The translations under genes and the position numbers were made by a program. Below, piece after piece: positions 45,687-52,593 of a DNA stretch of 64,000 nucleotides (its first letter is position 1; the number at the start of each line of letters is the position of its first letter). The notes under the pieces are model-generated. The model was not told the origin of the DNA. It saw only the letters and a list, made by a program, of their open reading frames with translations, and ran no database searches. The stretch comes from Terrabacter aerolatus (GTDB taxonomy: Bacteria; Actinomycetota; Actinomycetes; Actinomycetales; Dermatophilaceae): the NCBI RefSeq assembly GCF_007991735.1, contig NZ_BJYX01000003.1:186001-250000 (forward strand), given 5' to 3'.

Positions 45687-47507
45687 GTGACGCCATCAGC
45701 AACCCAGACCCTGAACCACCCCGGCCTCGGCGCCGGGCACGACGTGGACGTCCGCGAGGACGCGACCCCGGTCCACGCCGAGGACCGCCCGGACGCCGCC
45801 TGGTGGCGGCAGGCCGTGATCTACCAGATCTACCCCCGCTCGTGGGCCGACCACGACGGTGACGGCATCGGCGACCTGCCCGGCATCACCTCGCGGCTGC
45901 CGCACCTGCGCGCCCTCGGCGTCGACGCCATCTGGCTCTCGCCGTTCTACACCTCGCCCCAGGCGGACGCCGGCTACGACGTCGCGGACTACCGCGACAT
46001 CGACCCGATCTTCGGCTCGCTCACGGACGCCGACGACATGATCGCGCGCGCCCACGAGCTGGGCCTCAAGGTCATCGTCGACATGGTGCCCAACCACTCC
46101 TCCGACGAGCACGAGTGGTTCACGGCCGCCCTCGCCGCCGGCCCCGGCTCGGCCGAGCGTGAGCGCTACATGTTCCGCGAGGGCCGCGGTGAGCACGGCG
46201 AGCTGCCCCCGAACAACTGGGAGTCCGTCTTCGGCGGCGCCGCGTGGACGCGGGTCACCGAGGCCGACGGCAAGCCCGGCCAGTGGTACCTGCACATCTT
46301 CGACACCAAGCAGCCCGACTTCAACTGGGAGCACCCCGAGGTGCGCGCCGAATTCGAGTCGATCCTGCGCTTCTGGCTCGACCGGGGCGTCGACGGCTTC
46401 CGCGTCGACGTGGCGCACGGCCTCATCAAGGAGCAGGGCCTGCCCGACACCGAGGAGGAGCGCACGACGATGCTCGGCCACTCCGAGCACGAGCACGGCC
46501 CCGAGGGGGTGTCCGAGGCTGCCCCCGTCGAGGAGGCGCCGCGGATCGACCACACGAAGCGCAGCCCGATGTGGGACCAGGACGGCGTCCACGAGATCTA
46601 CCGCGCCTGGCGCCGGATCCTCGAGTCCTACGGGACGCCCGACCGCATCCTGTGCGCCGAGGCCTGGGTCGAGCCGCAGGAGCGCGCCGTGGCCTACGTC
46701 CGCTCGGACGAGATGCACCAGGCGTTCAACTTCGACTTCCTCACGGCCTCGTGGATCGCCGACGACCTGCGCGCCGTCATCACGTCGTCGCTGCACGCCG
46801 CCGACTCGGTGGGCGCCCCGTCGACGTGGGTGCTGTCGAACCACGACGTCGTGCGTCACGCGTCGCGTCTCGGCTACGCGCCGGGCACGCCTCGGATGAA
46901 CGGCATCTCGGCGACGGACCCGCAGCCCGACCGCGAGCTCGGCCTGCGCCGCGCCCGTGCGGCCACCGCGCTCATGCTCGCACTGCCGGGTGGGGCGTAC
47001 CTCTACCAGGGCGAGGAGCTCGGGCTGCCGGACTCCACCGACATGCCCGACGAGTTCCGCCAGGACCCGACGTTCGCGCGCACCGACGGCGCCGAGACGG
47101 GCCGTGACGGCTGCCGCGTGCCGATCCCGTGGTCGTCCCAGGGTCCGTCGCTCGGCTTCGGCCCGGGCGCCAGCACGTGGCTGCCGCAGCCCGACGTCTA
47201 CGCCGAGTACGCCGTGGACCGCCAGGAGGGCGTCGAGGGCTCGACGCTCGAGCTCTACCGCTCGCTCCTCGCCGCGCGGCGTGAGCTGTCGCTCGGCACC
47301 GGCTCGCTGACGTGGGTCGAGGGGTATGCCGGTGACGTCGTCGCCCTGACCAACGGGTCGTCCCAGCGCGACCGCCTGCTCGTCGTCACGAACCTCGGTG
47401 AGGACGCCGTGGCCCTGCCCGCCGGGGCCGAGGTCGTCGTGGCCTCCGGGCCGCTCGAGGACGGGCTCGTCCCGACCGACACGACGGTCTGGGCCCGCTG
47501 GTCCTGA
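45687..47507 (+). CDS. GH13 alpha-glucosidase / oligo-1,6-glucosidase
   Basis: 606 residues. GH13 barrel: IYQIYPRSWADHDGDGIGDL, then VDMVPNHSSDEHEWF; nucleophile Asp in GFRVDVAHG, acid/base Glu in LCAEAWVEP, transition-state Asp in LSNHDVVRH; the DGCRVPIPW stretch near the C-terminus is typical of alpha-glucosidases. It hydrolyses short alpha-glucosides (maltose, isomaltose or similar); trehalose synthase is less likely because the TreS-specific tail is missing. Start is GTG at 45687, with weak ribosome-site support. Terminated by a 17-base stem. Confidence 0.9.
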   Translation: MTPSATQTLNHPGLGAGHDVDVREDATPVHAEDRPDAAWWRQAVIYQIYPRSWADHDGDGIGDLPGITSRLPHLRALGVDAIWLSPFYTSPQADAGYDVADYRDIDPIFGSLTDADDMIARAHELGLKVIVDMVPNHSSDEHEWFTAALAAGPGSAERERYMFREGRGEHGELPPNNWESVFGGAAWTRVTEADGKPGQWYLHIFDTKQPDFNWEHPEVRAEFESILRFWLDRGVDGFRVDVAHGLIKEQGLPDTEEERTTMLGHSEHEHGPEGVSEAAPVEEAPRIDHTKRSPMWDQDGVHEIYRAWRRILESYGTPDRILCAEAWVEPQERAVAYVRSDEMHQAFNFDFLTASWIADDLRAVITSSLHAADSVGAPSTWVLSNHDVVRHASRLGYAPGTPRMNGISATDPQPDRELGLRRARAATALMLALPGGAYLYQGEELGLPDSTDMPDEFRQDPTFARTDGAETGRDGCRVPIPWSSQGPSLGFGPGASTWLPQPDVYAEYAVDRQEGVEGSTLELYRSLLAARRELSLGTGSLTWVEGYAGDVVALTNGSSQRDRLLVVTNLGEDAVALPAGAEVVVASGPLEDGLVPTDTTVWARWS

Positions 47508-47638: not shown

Positions 47639-48004
47639 ATGACCCGCTACTCCTTCGACGGTGCCGGGGTGTCCCGCGAACGGGTCGCCCTCGGCCATGA
47701 CCCCGTCGAGCTGCGTGAGTGCGCGTCTCTCGTCGCCGCGGCGACCGCGGGTGCCATGGCGTCGACCGGGTCTGAGGGGCAGGCGCTTCGCACTGCACTC
47801 GCACGGTTCCGCGCGGTCGAGGCGCACGCCTTCGACGCGCTCGCCGACGCCGCGAGTGCGCTCGGGGGCCGTCTCGACCGGTCGGTGGCGGAGGCGCGGG
47901 CGGTGGAGCTGTTCGTCACGTCCGGGTTCGCCGCCGTGGCCGCGAGCGGTCCTGTGCGACATGGCCTTCCGGCCGCTCCCACGGGCGTGGCGGGAGCGGG
48001 ATGA
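47639..48004 (+). CDS. Small partner protein of the polymorphic toxin
   Basis: 121 residues, mostly Ala-rich helix (VELRECASLVAAATAGAMAS, then LRTALARFRAVEAHAFDAL), no signal peptide, no Trp. It has the size and helical character of the small proteins (EspC/WXG100-like) encoded before long toxins exported by type VII systems. The gene overlaps the toxin gene by ATGA, so the products are made together. ATG at 47639, just after the terminator and a short promoter-like stretch (CTCCTACCGTCGG). A role as co-secreted partner or chaperone is inferred. Confidence 0.6.
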   Translation: MTRYSFDGAGVSRERVALGHDPVELRECASLVAAATAGAMASTGSEGQALRTALARFRAVEAHAFDALADAASALGGRLDRSVAEARAVELFVTSGFAAVAASGPVRHGLPAAPTGVAGAG

Positions 48005-50886
48005 GCCGCGTCCACGACGGAGGGCACGCGGCACCGTCGATCTCGGGCGAGGTCGCCCTGCCGCTCCCCACCGGCGACGGTGAGGGTCTGCGCGCAGCCG
48101 CACGATCGCTCGACCGGGCCGCTGCGAGAGCGCAGGCGACGACGACGGTGTGCGGCACCCTGGCCGCCCGTCTCGGCAGCGTGTGGAGCGGTGCCGCGGC
48201 CGACGCCGCGCGGGTCGAGGCCGACGAGCTCGGATCACGTTCCCGACCGGTCGTGGGAGCCCTCCCCCGCACGGCGCATGCCCTGGTCACGTATGCCGCG
48301 GCGCTCGACCACGCGACCGGCCGGGTGCGCGCCCTGCAGCGCGAGTGGGACGCCCTCGACGCGGACCACGCCCTCGCGACCCTCCGCCTGTCCCACCTGC
48401 CGGACCCCACCGGTGCGGGCGTGGTGCTCGGGCTGGAGCGCGCCCGCGCCGACCTGGCTGCCGGCCGCGCACGGCTGAGCCGGACGCACGCGGCGGTCCT
48501 CGAGGAGCTCCGGGCCTCGGCGCGGCGGTGCACGGCGACGGTTGCCGCTCTCACCGACATGACGTTCCCCTCGGGGTCGACCCCCACCCCGGGACTGGTG
48601 CGGTCGGTCGTGACCGGCGGCCTGTCGTTCGCCGACGGAGTCGTCGCGCAGCGCCGCTCGCGCGAGGCCGCCCTCTCTGACGGGCTTCTCGTGCGGCGCG
48701 CGGTGGCGGCGGCCCAGGCCGGTGGTGGCCGGCTGACCGACGGGGCGACAGCCGTCCTCGTGACACGGATCCGCGAGCGGCGCGATGACCCGGCCTACGC
48801 GCAGGCCCTCCTCGAGGAGCTCGGGACCGACGGGCTCGCCGACCTGCTCCTGACGGCCGGAGTGACGCACGAGGGCTCCGGCGCGCACGTCGACACCGTG
48901 CGCGGACTCCTCGGGACGCTGGGCTCGCTCGTCATCACGGCAACGGGGCGGGTGGTGCCGGCCGGCACCGACCCTCGGACCCGTGCCGAGCTGGCGTCCG
49001 GAGCGGCCCTGCTCGCCGACGACGTCGTCGCCGGGGTCGACACCGTGCGCACCGCACCATCCGGCGACGGGCGGGCGACCGGGGCCTGGCTGCTCGGCCA
49101 GCTGCTCTCCGGGGCCCGAGCGGACGGCGACGTGCGTCGTCTTCCGCCGCGCCTGGCGCGGCGTGCCGCGGCGGCTGCTGCCACGTCCGAGATCGCCGAG
49201 ACCCGCGACGCCGACCCGACGTTGCGCCACGGCAGCACCCTCGTGCCGGACGCGAGCTCGACGTTCGCCTCGTGGTTCGAGGACGCCGCGACGACCGGTG
49301 ACGCGCTGCACGTCCTGCTCGGGCACGTCCGTGACGACCCGGCGGAGGCAGCGGCGTTGCTCGCCGAGCCGTTGCCCGACTCCGGAGTCGCAGGCCTCGC
49401 CCTCGCCAACTCCCGCGGCGACCGGCTGACCCTGGGCGAGCACCTGGTGCGCCGGTGGATCACGCACGAGGCCAGCGGGACCGAGAGCCACCCCGACCTG
49501 CACCTGCACACCGACGACGACCTCAGGCAACTGCTCGGGGACCTTGCGTTCGTCGACGGCGACGGCGCCGCGCAGACCCGGGCGAGGGTGATGCTCGAGG
49601 TGTCGCGGACGAGTGCCTTCGCCATGTCGGAGGCGTCGACGACCCGCATCTACACCGCAGCCACAGCCCCCGTGGAGGGCCTCGTCGCCGACTGGGTGGC
49701 GGCGATGCGGGAGAACGTCGACCGGGCGCTCGCCTCCCCCGGCGCGCTGTCCACGATGGCGGCCCCCTACACCGCGGTGACGACGGACGGGCCGCAGCCG
49801 TGGCTGACGCCTCGTGAGCTCACCGGTGTCGTCGGCGCCCTGGCGGTCGACACCGGGATGGGGCTCCGTGCGAAGCAGACGGGCGCGGCATACGACCGGC
49901 TCGTCGACCGGGAGCTCGACGCCGCCCGCGAGACCGTGGCGACCGGTGGCGACCCGCAGGCAGACGAGGTCCGGCTCGGGTTCCTCGACCAGTCGGCGTC
50001 GGCGACGCTCGTGGCCCTCGCACGACGACAGGACGACCTCAACCGCTCTGCGTGGCAGGGCATCGCCGAGGCGGTCCACGTCATCGACATCGTCAAGCGC
50101 GGCGACCTGCCCGGCCTGACGGCGGCCGTGCACACCTACCTCGACGGGGGCACGCTTCGCACGCCGGCCGACGACCTCGTCATCTCGCTCGTCCGCTCGA
50201 ACGTCGAGCTCTCCCAGACCGAGGTCGACGAGGCTCGGCGTTCCGAGCTCGTCTCGCGCGTCGAGGCGATCACCGGTGGTGGCCGTGACGTGCTCCCCGC
50301 TCTGTCGGGCGGCGCAGCCCTCGCGCCGGGCCTGCCCTCCGCCGAGGCCCTGCGAGCCATCCGCGCCGACGAGATCCGGGCATCAGCCGAGGCCGCCGCC
50401 CAGGACGGCACGGCCGGGCTCGGCTCGCGGGTGAGTGAACGCCTGGGACAGCGCACCACCCTTCCGGACCGTGTCCACGTCGTCGAGGGATCCGGAAGCA
50501 GCCCCCGGTCCAAGGTCGGCAGCGTCGACCTGGGCGCGGCCAAGGACCTCAAGGACCACGAGAAGGCGACGGCCAGCCGCCTCGCCGCGCTCGGGCACGA
50601 CGTCGAGTTCCTGTCTGCGACCGGGCACGGGAAGTCTCCGGACGCGCTGGTCGACGGGGTCCTGTGGGAGTTCAAATCACCGACGGGCGCCAGCAGCGAG
50701 ACGATCGCCCGCAACCTGCGCAAGGGGTCCGAACAATCCCCTCGTATCGTGATCGACCTGGCGCGATGTGACATCACGGTGGCCGAGGCCGTGGGTCAGG
50801 CCGAGTACGCACTCGATCGATACGATCGCATCGAAGCCATCCTCATCATCGACAAGGACGGTCGCACCACCGAGAGGACGCGTTAG
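48001..50886 (+). CDS. WXG-like polymorphic toxin with CdiA-type tRNase C-terminus
   Basis: 961 residues. The N-terminal ~120 form helices with a W-S-G turn (VWSGAAADAA, Trp62) like WXG100/LXG T7SS proteins. Residues ~180-820 are a long helical region with ASWFEDAATTGDALHVLLGH, resembling the DUF6571-type spacer of actinobacterial toxins. The C-terminal ~140 resemble the CdiA C-terminal tRNA-nuclease fold: Glu853 (DHEKATASRL), then TGHGKSPDALVDGVLWEFKS with Asp881 and Glu890-Phe-Lys892, a PD-(D/E)XK site. Rare codons (AAA, TCA, CGA, TGT, GAT) cluster in this tip. Probably secreted and RNA-cleaving; secretion route not in the window. Confidence 0.75.
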   Translation: MSRVHDGGHAAPSISGEVALPLPTGDGEGLRAAARSLDRAAARAQATTTVCGTLAARLGSVWSGAAADAARVEADELGSRSRPVVGALPRTAHALVTYAAALDHATGRVRALQREWDALDADHALATLRLSHLPDPTGAGVVLGLERARADLAAGRARLSRTHAAVLEELRASARRCTATVAALTDMTFPSGSTPTPGLVRSVVTGGLSFADGVVAQRRSREAALSDGLLVRRAVAAAQAGGGRLTDGATAVLVTRIRERRDDPAYAQALLEELGTDGLADLLLTAGVTHEGSGAHVDTVRGLLGTLGSLVITATGRVVPAGTDPRTRAELASGAALLADDVVAGVDTVRTAPSGDGRATGAWLLGQLLSGARADGDVRRLPPRLARRAAAAAATSEIAETRDADPTLRHGSTLVPDASSTFASWFEDAATTGDALHVLLGHVRDDPAEAAALLAEPLPDSGVAGLALANSRGDRLTLGEHLVRRWITHEASGTESHPDLHLHTDDDLRQLLGDLAFVDGDGAAQTRARVMLEVSRTSAFAMSEASTTRIYTAATAPVEGLVADWVAAMRENVDRALASPGALSTMAAPYTAVTTDGPQPWLTPRELTGVVGALAVDTGMGLRAKQTGAAYDRLVDRELDAARETVATGGDPQADEVRLGFLDQSASATLVALARRQDDLNRSAWQGIAEAVHVIDIVKRGDLPGLTAAVHTYLDGGTLRTPADDLVISLVRSNVELSQTEVDEARRSELVSRVEAITGGGRDVLPALSGGAALAPGLPSAEALRAIRADEIRASAEAAAQDGTAGLGSRVSERLGQRTTLPDRVHVVEGSGSSPRSKVGSVDLGAAKDLKDHEKATASRLAALGHDVEFLSATGHGKSPDALVDGVLWEFKSPTGASSETIARNLRKGSEQSPRIVIDLARCDITVAEAVGQAEYALDRYDRIEAILIIDKDGRTTERTR

Positions 50887-50888
50887 CC

Positions 50889-51650
50889 ATGGCTTCGTGG
50901 GACATCAGCATCGGCCTCCCGCCTTCCGACGTCATCGCCGTCCTCAGGCGCCTGCCCGGTGTGGCCGTCGAAGACATCCCGACGGGGATCGGGATCGATC
51001 TCGGGGAAGGCCGTGCGGCGTGGGTCGACGCCGCACCTTCTGCGGGCGACCCCCAGGACCAGGCCTCGATCAGCGTCAAGGACCGCAGCACCATCGGTGC
51101 GTGGCGCATCTACGACCACCTCGCGGCCCAGACCACGGCACCGATGCAGATGTGGGACGACGGCGGGCTCCTCGTCAGCGAGCGGAGGTGGCAGGTGTCG
51201 GTGCGTCCGGGCTCGCCCGCGACGCAGCACATCGAGCTCGTGGACTGGGACTCCCGAGCTGTCGGTGCCCGACTGCTGGGGCTCGCGAGATCGGGGCCTC
51301 TGACGCCGTCCGACGTCCTGGCGGTTCTCGCGGACTCCGGAGTCCCCCAGGACGCTGTGCGTGACCGATCGCTCGAACTGACGGGCGAGCTCGTGCGTGC
51401 CGGGTTGCTGCGACCCCACCCCACCCTGCACGAGCAGGCTCCGCCACGAGGCGCAGGGGTCCCGCGCACCCAGGACCTCGTGTTCACGACCTATGCCCTC
51501 TTCCGAACAGGCGACGACCGGACCGGGACGCTCGTGATCGGTCCGGCCGTCCCGCGGGACGCCCGGGCCACGATCACGGCCGCGGACGTCCGGAACTGGA
51601 TGATGAGGGACTTCGACGCCAGTGCGAACCCCGGCAGTGGTGCCGGGTGA
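50889..51650 (+). CDS. Candidate immunity protein for the CdiA-type toxin
   Basis: 253 residues, soluble, no recognised domain. It starts 2 bases after the toxin stop, the usual position of a cognate immunity gene, and is co-directional. Notable parts: MASWDISIGLPPSDVIAVLR and, later, DVLAVLADSGVPQDAVRDRS, which look like two similar helical units. Codon use is less GC-biased than in the flanking genes (for example TAT, GAT and AAG-rich runs). It could instead be a further secretion factor. Immunity role is from position only. Confidence 0.5.
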   Translation: MASWDISIGLPPSDVIAVLRRLPGVAVEDIPTGIGIDLGEGRAAWVDAAPSAGDPQDQASISVKDRSTIGAWRIYDHLAAQTTAPMQMWDDGGLLVSERRWQVSVRPGSPATQHIELVDWDSRAVGARLLGLARSGPLTPSDVLAVLADSGVPQDAVRDRSLELTGELVRAGLLRPHPTLHEQAPPRGAGVPRTQDLVFTTYALFRTGDDRTGTLVIGPAVPRDARATITAADVRNWMMRDFDASANPGSGAG

Positions 51651-51808
51651 GGTGGGGCAAGCCTGGGGCACACCTCGAGGCGGACACCATCTACGACCTT
51701 CTGGTGGTGCGCGGGCTCGACGACTGGTTGCAGCCGCGCGTGGGCCGAGGCGGCTCTGGGGCGGCTCCCCGACGTCGACTGAGGCACCCGGTTACGCTCG
51801 CCCTGTGA
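51647..51808 (+). pseudogene. Short coupled ORF, probable truncated remnant
   Basis: GTG at 51647 overlaps the stop of the candidate immunity gene (GTGA) and the frame runs 53 codons to a TGA that in turn overlaps the GDPD start. The first half looks protein-like (HLEADTIYDLLVVRGLDDWL), the second half is Arg/Gly-rich and looks out of frame. This suggests the 5' end of a lost or frameshifted gene, perhaps a second immunity gene. It could also be a real small peptide. Confidence 0.35.
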
Positions 51809-52593
51809 CGACCCGGGCCTACCTCCAGCGCACGCCGGTGGCCCTGGCCCACCGCGGCGGGTCCCTCTACACCCCCAACGTCGGGCTCGAGAACACCATG
51901 ACGGCCTTCGGCAACGCTGTCGCCCTCGGCTACACGCACCTGGAGACCGACGTGCACCTCACGCGGGACGGACGGCTCGTCGCCTTCCACGACACGGTGC
52001 TCGACCGGGTGACCAACGCCCGCGGCCGCATCCGTGACCTGCCGTGGTCCGAGGTGGCCCACGCCGAGGTCGGCGACGGCGGGCGCATCCCGCTGCTCAG
52101 CGACCTGCTCGACGCGTGGCCCGCCATCAACCTCAACATCGACCTCAAGGCTCCCGGCACCGCCGAGCCCCTGTGGGAGCTCATCGAGGAGCGTGGAATC
52201 CACGGCCAGGTGTGCGTCGGCTCGTTCTCCCAGCGCAACATCTCGCACTTCCGGCGGCTCTCCCACGGCACGGTCGCGACGGCGGCAGCGGAGGTGGGCA
52301 CGGCCCTCGCCCGTTTCGGGCCCTGGGTCCTCAGCGCGGTCTTCCGCACCCCCGCCGACGTCTTCCAGGTCCCGACCTCCATTCCCTTGCGGGGCAGGCC
52401 CATTCGCATCGTCACGGCCCGGTTCGTCGAAACCGCCCATCGATGCGACAAGCAGGTGCACGTCTGGACCATCGACGACGCCGACGAGATGGAGCGCCTG
52501 CTCGACCTCGGGGTCGACGGTCTCGTCAGTGACCGCATCGACGTCCTCAAGGACGTCCTCGTCGGTCGAGGAGTCTGGACCGGGCAGGGCTGA
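51805..52593 (+). CDS. Glycerophosphodiester phosphodiesterase (GDPD)
   Basis: 262 residues. AHRGGSLYTPNVGLENTMTA at the start and THLETDVHLTRDGRLVAFHD give the GDPD catalytic His/Glu/Asp set; the C-terminal VHVWTIDDADEMERLLDLGV is also typical. Hydrolyses glycerophosphodiesters to glycerol-3-phosphate and alcohol. No signal peptide, so cytosolic. GTG at 51805 overlaps the preceding short ORF. An upstream TTACGCT could be a -10 element of its own promoter. Confidence 0.93.
   Translation: MTTRAYLQRTPVALAHRGGSLYTPNVGLENTMTAFGNAVALGYTHLETDVHLTRDGRLVAFHDTVLDRVTNARGRIRDLPWSEVAHAEVGDGGRIPLLSDLLDAWPAINLNIDLKAPGTAEPLWELIEERGIHGQVCVGSFSQRNISHFRRLSHGTVATAAAEVGTALARFGPWVLSAVFRTPADVFQVPTSIPLRGRPIRIVTARFVETAHRCDKQVHVWTIDDADEMERLLDLGVDGLVSDRIDVLKDVLVGRGVWTGQG

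Follow-up and report, generated by a model that had tools for sequence, protein, structure and literature searches.

A probable toxin-immunity operon of the polymorphic type in Terrabacter aerolatus, with a CdiA-type nuclease tip

Here we describe three adjacent genes, A, B and C, in a 64,000-nucleotide stretch of the Terrabacter aerolatus genome (the window; contig NZ_BJYX01000003.1, positions 186,001 to 250,000). They are strongly supported as a polymorphic toxin-immunity operon whose toxin, B, ends in a CdiA-type nuclease tip. Operons of this kind are already known; the variant is new. We consider it probable that the whole is an interbacterial polymorphic toxin operon in which C is protective and B leaves the cell by type VII-like export. 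Beyond the nuclease assignment we infer the tRNA target, the toxicity, the delivery into neighbours, the binding by C, the role of A and the export route. The features are listed below; G, C and L numbers are our handles for genomes, contigs and loci, and the operon lies on contig C3.

47639-48004, forward strand: gene A, 121 amino acids (aa), small protein, proposed export partner of B
48001-50886, forward strand: gene B, 961 aa, polymorphic toxin
48076-48306, forward strand: helical hairpin of WXG-like type in B, with its turn at W62-S-G64; PF06013 match at residues 26-102
48634-50358, forward strand: mostly helical middle of B, a solenoid-like stalk, residues about 212-786
50518-50883, forward strand: toxin tip of B, residues 840-961; PD-(D/E)XK nuclease of CdiA_C type
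50889-51650, forward strand: gene C, 253 aa, candidate immunity protein
50889-51218, forward strand: first domain of C, residues 1-110, the part common to all C homologues
51225-51647, forward strand: second half of C, residues 113-253, common to G007 and G003 only

The genes are as tightly packed as a sequence-only reading of the window had said, with an ATGA overlap between A and B and 2 bases between B and C. That reading also proposed a CdiA-type nuclease tip, and the Pfam family CdiA_C (PF18451), of PD-(D/E)XK fold, indeed matches B at 60.5 bits over the whole protein and 65 with the tip alone, against a cut-off of 26.6. The catalytic residues D881, E890 and K892 were named correctly, whereas residue 853 is a histidine and the glutamate is E854. 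Together with R907 and Q912 these four residues are invariant in all nine aligned tips, and E, D and D/E are spaced as in structure 4g6v. Computation establishes the family, fold and acidic spacing of the tip. By analogy with 4g6v, which is listed with tRNA-Ala and Mg2+ (PMC9086364), the tip most likely cleaves tRNA. The operon is not a chance arrangement, because B has this match to CdiA_C and its body, searched with the middle part of B, is found in 15 of 186 genomes of the family.

Comparison of these genomes reveals tips exchanged together with the downstream gene, low-G+C tips and displaced extra modules. A CdiA_C tip is present in nine of the 15 body-carrying genomes (G000, G003, G007, G008, G024, G034, G047, G107 and G121), and a C homologue is the next gene in all nine, window included, and behind none of the six other B proteins. 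G004, G005 and G029 have in common a different tip, to which no family name applies, and a different downstream protein. G006 has a third kind of tip, unnamed by the tools run, followed by a DUF2247 protein; G001 has kept the DUF2247 protein, while its tip is a 34-residue match to that of G006 in another frame. G123 has no recognisable tip and no recognisable immunity gene. The sequence-only reading had asked whether tip and immunity gene change together on a constant body, and 14 of the 15 genomes agree, G123 having neither and the G001 tip being a remnant. BLAST groups of tips match groups of downstream proteins with zero cross-pairing in 12 genomes; the G006 tip is single in this grouping, as the G001 tip is broken, and the immunity link between G005 and G029 is weak (9e-4). 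DUF2247 is Imm38, paired with Ntox19 and an HNH toxin in Zhang et al. 2012 (PMC3482391). The G001 homologue of B, at L029:8634-11051, ends in a different frame than the tip remnant.

The boundary between constant and exchanged parts is visible in identity and in composition. As far as residue 780, 60-residue steps of B are 50-83% identical to G006, G005 and G004; in the step after that identity falls to 36-46%, and beyond it to at most 25%. In 14 of the 15 genomes G+C falls at the end of B: its final 360 bases lie below every body stretch of equal length, by 0.003 to 0.07 (body scanned in 60-base steps, last 450 bases excluded), the sole exception being the tipless G123; G+C is 0.667 in the window's tip, 0.756 in the body and 0.719 in the window. 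Displaced modules, known from Rhs loci and from loci of contact-dependent inhibition (CDI), occur here too. In a Humibacillus metagenome-assembled genome a 45-residue CdiA_C tip fragment and then a second C homologue stand behind the main operon (L102:9243-9801), and in Intrasporangium oryzae one 337-residue open reading frame (ORF; L033:2675-3688) contains an immunity domain, a tip-II fragment and an immunity domain, which reads as a displaced toxin-immunity module within one frame. Relatives of the tip-II immunity protein (E 1e-13 to 1e-8) lie at G045:C2:643900, G218:C108:9249 and G104:C1:3550530, where the B body was not found; they are possibly orphan immunity genes.

The first domain of C is predicted to be alpha/beta, with mean model confidence (pLDDT) per block of 84-97 over residues 1-100. 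Residues 113-253 are possibly a second immunity domain: they match the tip-II immunity family at 27-77% in profile-profile mode, with no match in a HMMER search. In line with the sequence-only reading, the C family was found, among 396 genomes of the order, in the own genome and not beyond it. The tip itself is more widespread. Its profile matches nine of those 396 genomes (the own and eight others, two at E 2.5e-4), the locus L127 lying, by eye, in a phage portal-scaffold-like neighbourhood, and PF18451 matches 10 of 396 genomes of the phylum, seven over the cut-off, the own included. Among 50,697 phage records 28 have tip matches, the best being a MuF-like fusion protein of Mycobacterium phage MalagasyRose with 46.4% identity over tip residues 20-129. 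A scan with the profile of C gave no hit in 15 other loci that have tip-family matches, some weak; the MalagasyRose region was not among these 15.

The operon occupies a fixed chromosomal place in all 15 body-carrying genomes, as far as the contigs extend. It is flanked upstream by a gene at 45687-47507 that we take to be glycosidase-like ('malZ') and downstream by one at 51805-52593, presumably phosphodiesterase-like ('gdpd'). The former precedes the operon in all 13 relatives with upstream sequence, with one extra gene between in G123, and the latter follows it in all 14 relatives, with five other called genes between in G008. In Terrabacter sp. Root85 (L025:2742-7972) five called genes, which by look we presume to resemble glycosyltransferases and the like, separate the C homologue from the phosphodiesterase-like gene. 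The 12 named relatives belong to the soil dwellers Terrabacter, Terracoccus, Humibacillus and Intrasporangium and to an Intrasporangiaceae bacterium. Genes of relatives were called with a simple codon-usage script that set late B starts in G007, G008, G024, G107 and G001, and the G029 contig starts inside B, which leaves the N-terminal comparison incomplete for these six. Searched against 98 relatives, B matches 17: 12 with the long body (own included), four with an N-terminal relative only (G002, G023, G036 and G058) and one with the tip only (G061).

The N-terminal part of B may point to a type VII-like route. The W-S-G that the sequence-only reading saw is W62-S-G64, which in the predicted structure sits at the turn between long helices 27-61 and 65-131. 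Of the 12 B proteins read, the window's included, 11 have W-x-G at the corresponding position; in the twelfth, G024, the script start falls behind this position, and G107, G121 and G123 are not among the 12. In profile comparison the N-domain of B matches the N-domains of shorter family proteins at 99.4%, and those in turn reach 79.9% with WXG100-type proteins encoded in the own genome. With E-values allowed up to 1, Pfam gives CdiA_C, DUF6571 (25.9 bits against a cut-off of 27, over just 36 residues), WXG100 and WXG100_2 and no other domain in B; filamentous haemagglutinin and two-partner secretion carrier domains are absent at that threshold, which places B outside CdiB/CdiA two-partner secretion.

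Of the 13 relatives whose contigs extend upstream of B, 12 have a homologue of A, detected by BLAST, before B, and G034 has an unmatched 110-aa ORF there. By profile (hhalign 98.5%) A matches the small proteins that precede other WXG-like proteins; it does not match local WXG100 proteins (0.3% in profile comparison), and it matches none of the families in Pfam or NCBIfam at E-values up to 1; A may be the export partner of B. According to PMC9600955, toxins of LXG systems are escorted by a pair of small proteins, of which one carries an FxxxD motif. Any [YFW]xxx[DE] is found in three of 14 A proteins (at residue 57 in the window's A, and at residue 4 in those of G024 and G107). Three shorter loci (L037:7485-9540, L034:7483-9556 and L040:6784-8869) each hold an A-like gene, a WXG-like protein of about 450 residues and a small gene, which in L037 is DUF6188; they look like further toxin-immunity units of the A partner family. 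Own-genome proteins of 196-397 residues with WXG100-like N-termini (L084:8522-9715, L085:7513-8559, L087:7121-8089 and L088:7249-7839) are possible further substrates.

Two FHA-FtsK proteins are encoded in the own genome, one on contig C27 and one on C15, neither of which carries the operon. The C27 protein (1469 aa) scores 494.7 bits to EssC, under the cut-off of 778.4, and its locus (L082:3-14526) contains in order, by Pfam, fn3/Big (fn3/Ig), MoxR-type AAA, DUF58, TgpA-transglutaminase, FHA-FtsK and two WXG100 genes. This cluster may be a reduced type VII-like locus. By eye its gene order recurs in G003 (L089), and EccD was found in neither genome; the own genome also lacks YukD. The second FHA-FtsK ATPase gene is at L083:9080-13444, beside genes that we take to resemble a Tad/Flp pilus cluster.

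Several observations weigh against the reading of an exported tRNA nuclease with its immunity protein. The 4g6v lysine K242 faces R907, not the ExK lysine, in our alignment, and therefore catalysis need not equal that of 4g6v. The first domain of C matches CdiI (4g6v_B) weakly in structure, tied with unrelated proteins, and its gene, at about 0.71 G+C against 0.719 for the window, is not low and therefore not compositionally distinct. B stays below the cut-offs for WXG100 in Pfam (PF06013; 24.9 bits against 27.3) and NCBIfam (17.9 against 44.85), and its N-domain matches own-genome WXG100-type proteins directly at only 12.8%. No conserved YxxxD/E (or FxxxD) is present in the 14 A proteins read. 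In the sample of 98 genomes, the 12 that carry the toxin all lack EccD (matches at E 0.001 in 16 of the 98, nine over the cut-off) and all lack an EccC over the cut-off (present in 13 of 98 overall), in a survey that left out G107, G121 and G123; by these two proteins the 12 genomes lack canonical actinobacterial ESX (T7SSa). Sub-cut-off EccC-type matches, in frames of similar length, occur in many genomes without B, and therefore the ATPase is linked to B by elimination only, with no specific link. The type VII export first proposed is supported only in part: an EssC-like ATPase with two WXG100 genes exists elsewhere in the genome, while a WXG match over the cut-off, a conserved motif in A, EccD and an EccC over the cut-off are missing.

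These gaps are what favours an otherwise similar explanation, in which toxin and immunity protein are as proposed and B exits by lysis or another machine, with no type VII-like ATPase. The missing EccD, the lack of an EccC over the cut-off, the absence of YukD from 11 toxin genomes among 58, the sub-threshold WXG match, the poor direct match to own WXG100-type proteins and the separate contigs of operon and EssC-like genes all fit it; the conserved W-x-G, its predicted place at the turn of a hairpin, the chain of N-domain matches and a small gene before B, as in the LXG systems of PMC9600955, do not, and we regard it as rather unlikely. Quite improbable is an internal toxin-antitoxin or abortive-infection unit in which B stays inside and acts on stress or phage, with C as antitoxin. 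The operon is tight, and phage MuF-type proteins have tips of this family, which means that such tips travel with phages; however, secreted polymorphic toxins are built in just this way, with variable C-terminal tips on a long constant body, and neither A nor C has a known DNA-binding domain, since no Pfam family at all is found in them at E up to 1. Even less credible is a decayed or domesticated locus without present toxicity, as the G001 remnant and the bare G123 might suggest, because the window has an intact frame, catalytic residues and a downstream gene, and B is 62-66% identical to seven same-genus relatives over the matched part.

On the interbacterial reading, B would be a stalked toxin: a WXG-like hairpin would serve its export, a helical stalk about 575 residues long would follow, and the nuclease tip would form the C-terminus. 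This tip, of the CdiA-CT 1026b type, would have E854, D881, E890 and K892 as its site and would most likely cut the tRNA of a neighbouring cell, and the first domain of C would bind the tip and thereby protect producer and kin. Type VII-like export of B is likely and, if true, uses a reduced machine: A would escort B to such an exporter, most likely the C27 EssC-like FHA-FtsK ATPase/WXG100 locus. Tip and immunity gene would form a cassette swapped as one piece on a fixed body. A bolder extension, which we hold unlikely, is that soil actinobacteria without EccD or YukD deliver large stalked toxins into neighbours with a new partner family, the motif-less A, through a reduced machine of EssC-like FHA-FtsK, MoxR, DUF58 and transglutaminase, and that C is two-headed, its CdiI-fold first domain facing the CdiA_C tip and its second another tip, seen in sister strains.

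The locus is a clean natural experiment in an environmental genus: a single carrier at a single chromosomal place bears three kinds of tip, each with its own downstream gene, and displaced modules occur as well. In this it is comparable to the CDI loci of Gram-negatives. It makes testable whether actinobacteria without EccD can export antibacterial toxins, what small protein acts as their escort, and whether one pair of toxin and immunity folds has stayed united across two-partner secretion and a type VII-like carrier.

Among known systems, the tip of B shares the CdiA_C family with CdiA-CT/CdiI of Burkholderia pseudomallei 1026b (4g6v, PF18451). Whereas that CdiA is a two-partner filamentous adhesin, the carrier of B is WXG-like and helical and its host Gram-positive; B has a lysine in the ExK motif and an arginine opposite K242, and C has about 140 residues more than CdiI. 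In MuF toxins of temperate phages, among which the CdiA-2 tRNase domain is discussed in PMC5576092, the tip family is the same and the carrier is a phage head protein. Unlike type VII WXG/LXG systems, hosts of B are without EccD or YukD among those tested, A is not detectably WXG100 and lacks a conserved motif, and the WXG score of B is below the cut-off. Like the WXG/LXG type VII toxins of PMC3482391 and PMC9600955, the latter on TelC/TelD with Lap1/Lap2, B has a helical N-terminus with a W-x-G turn, a variable C-terminal toxin, a small gene in front and an immunity gene behind. Actinobacterial WXG-exported toxins of restriction-endonuclease fold, and longer stalked toxins of type VII secretion, are listed in Zhang et al. 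2012 (PMC3482391).

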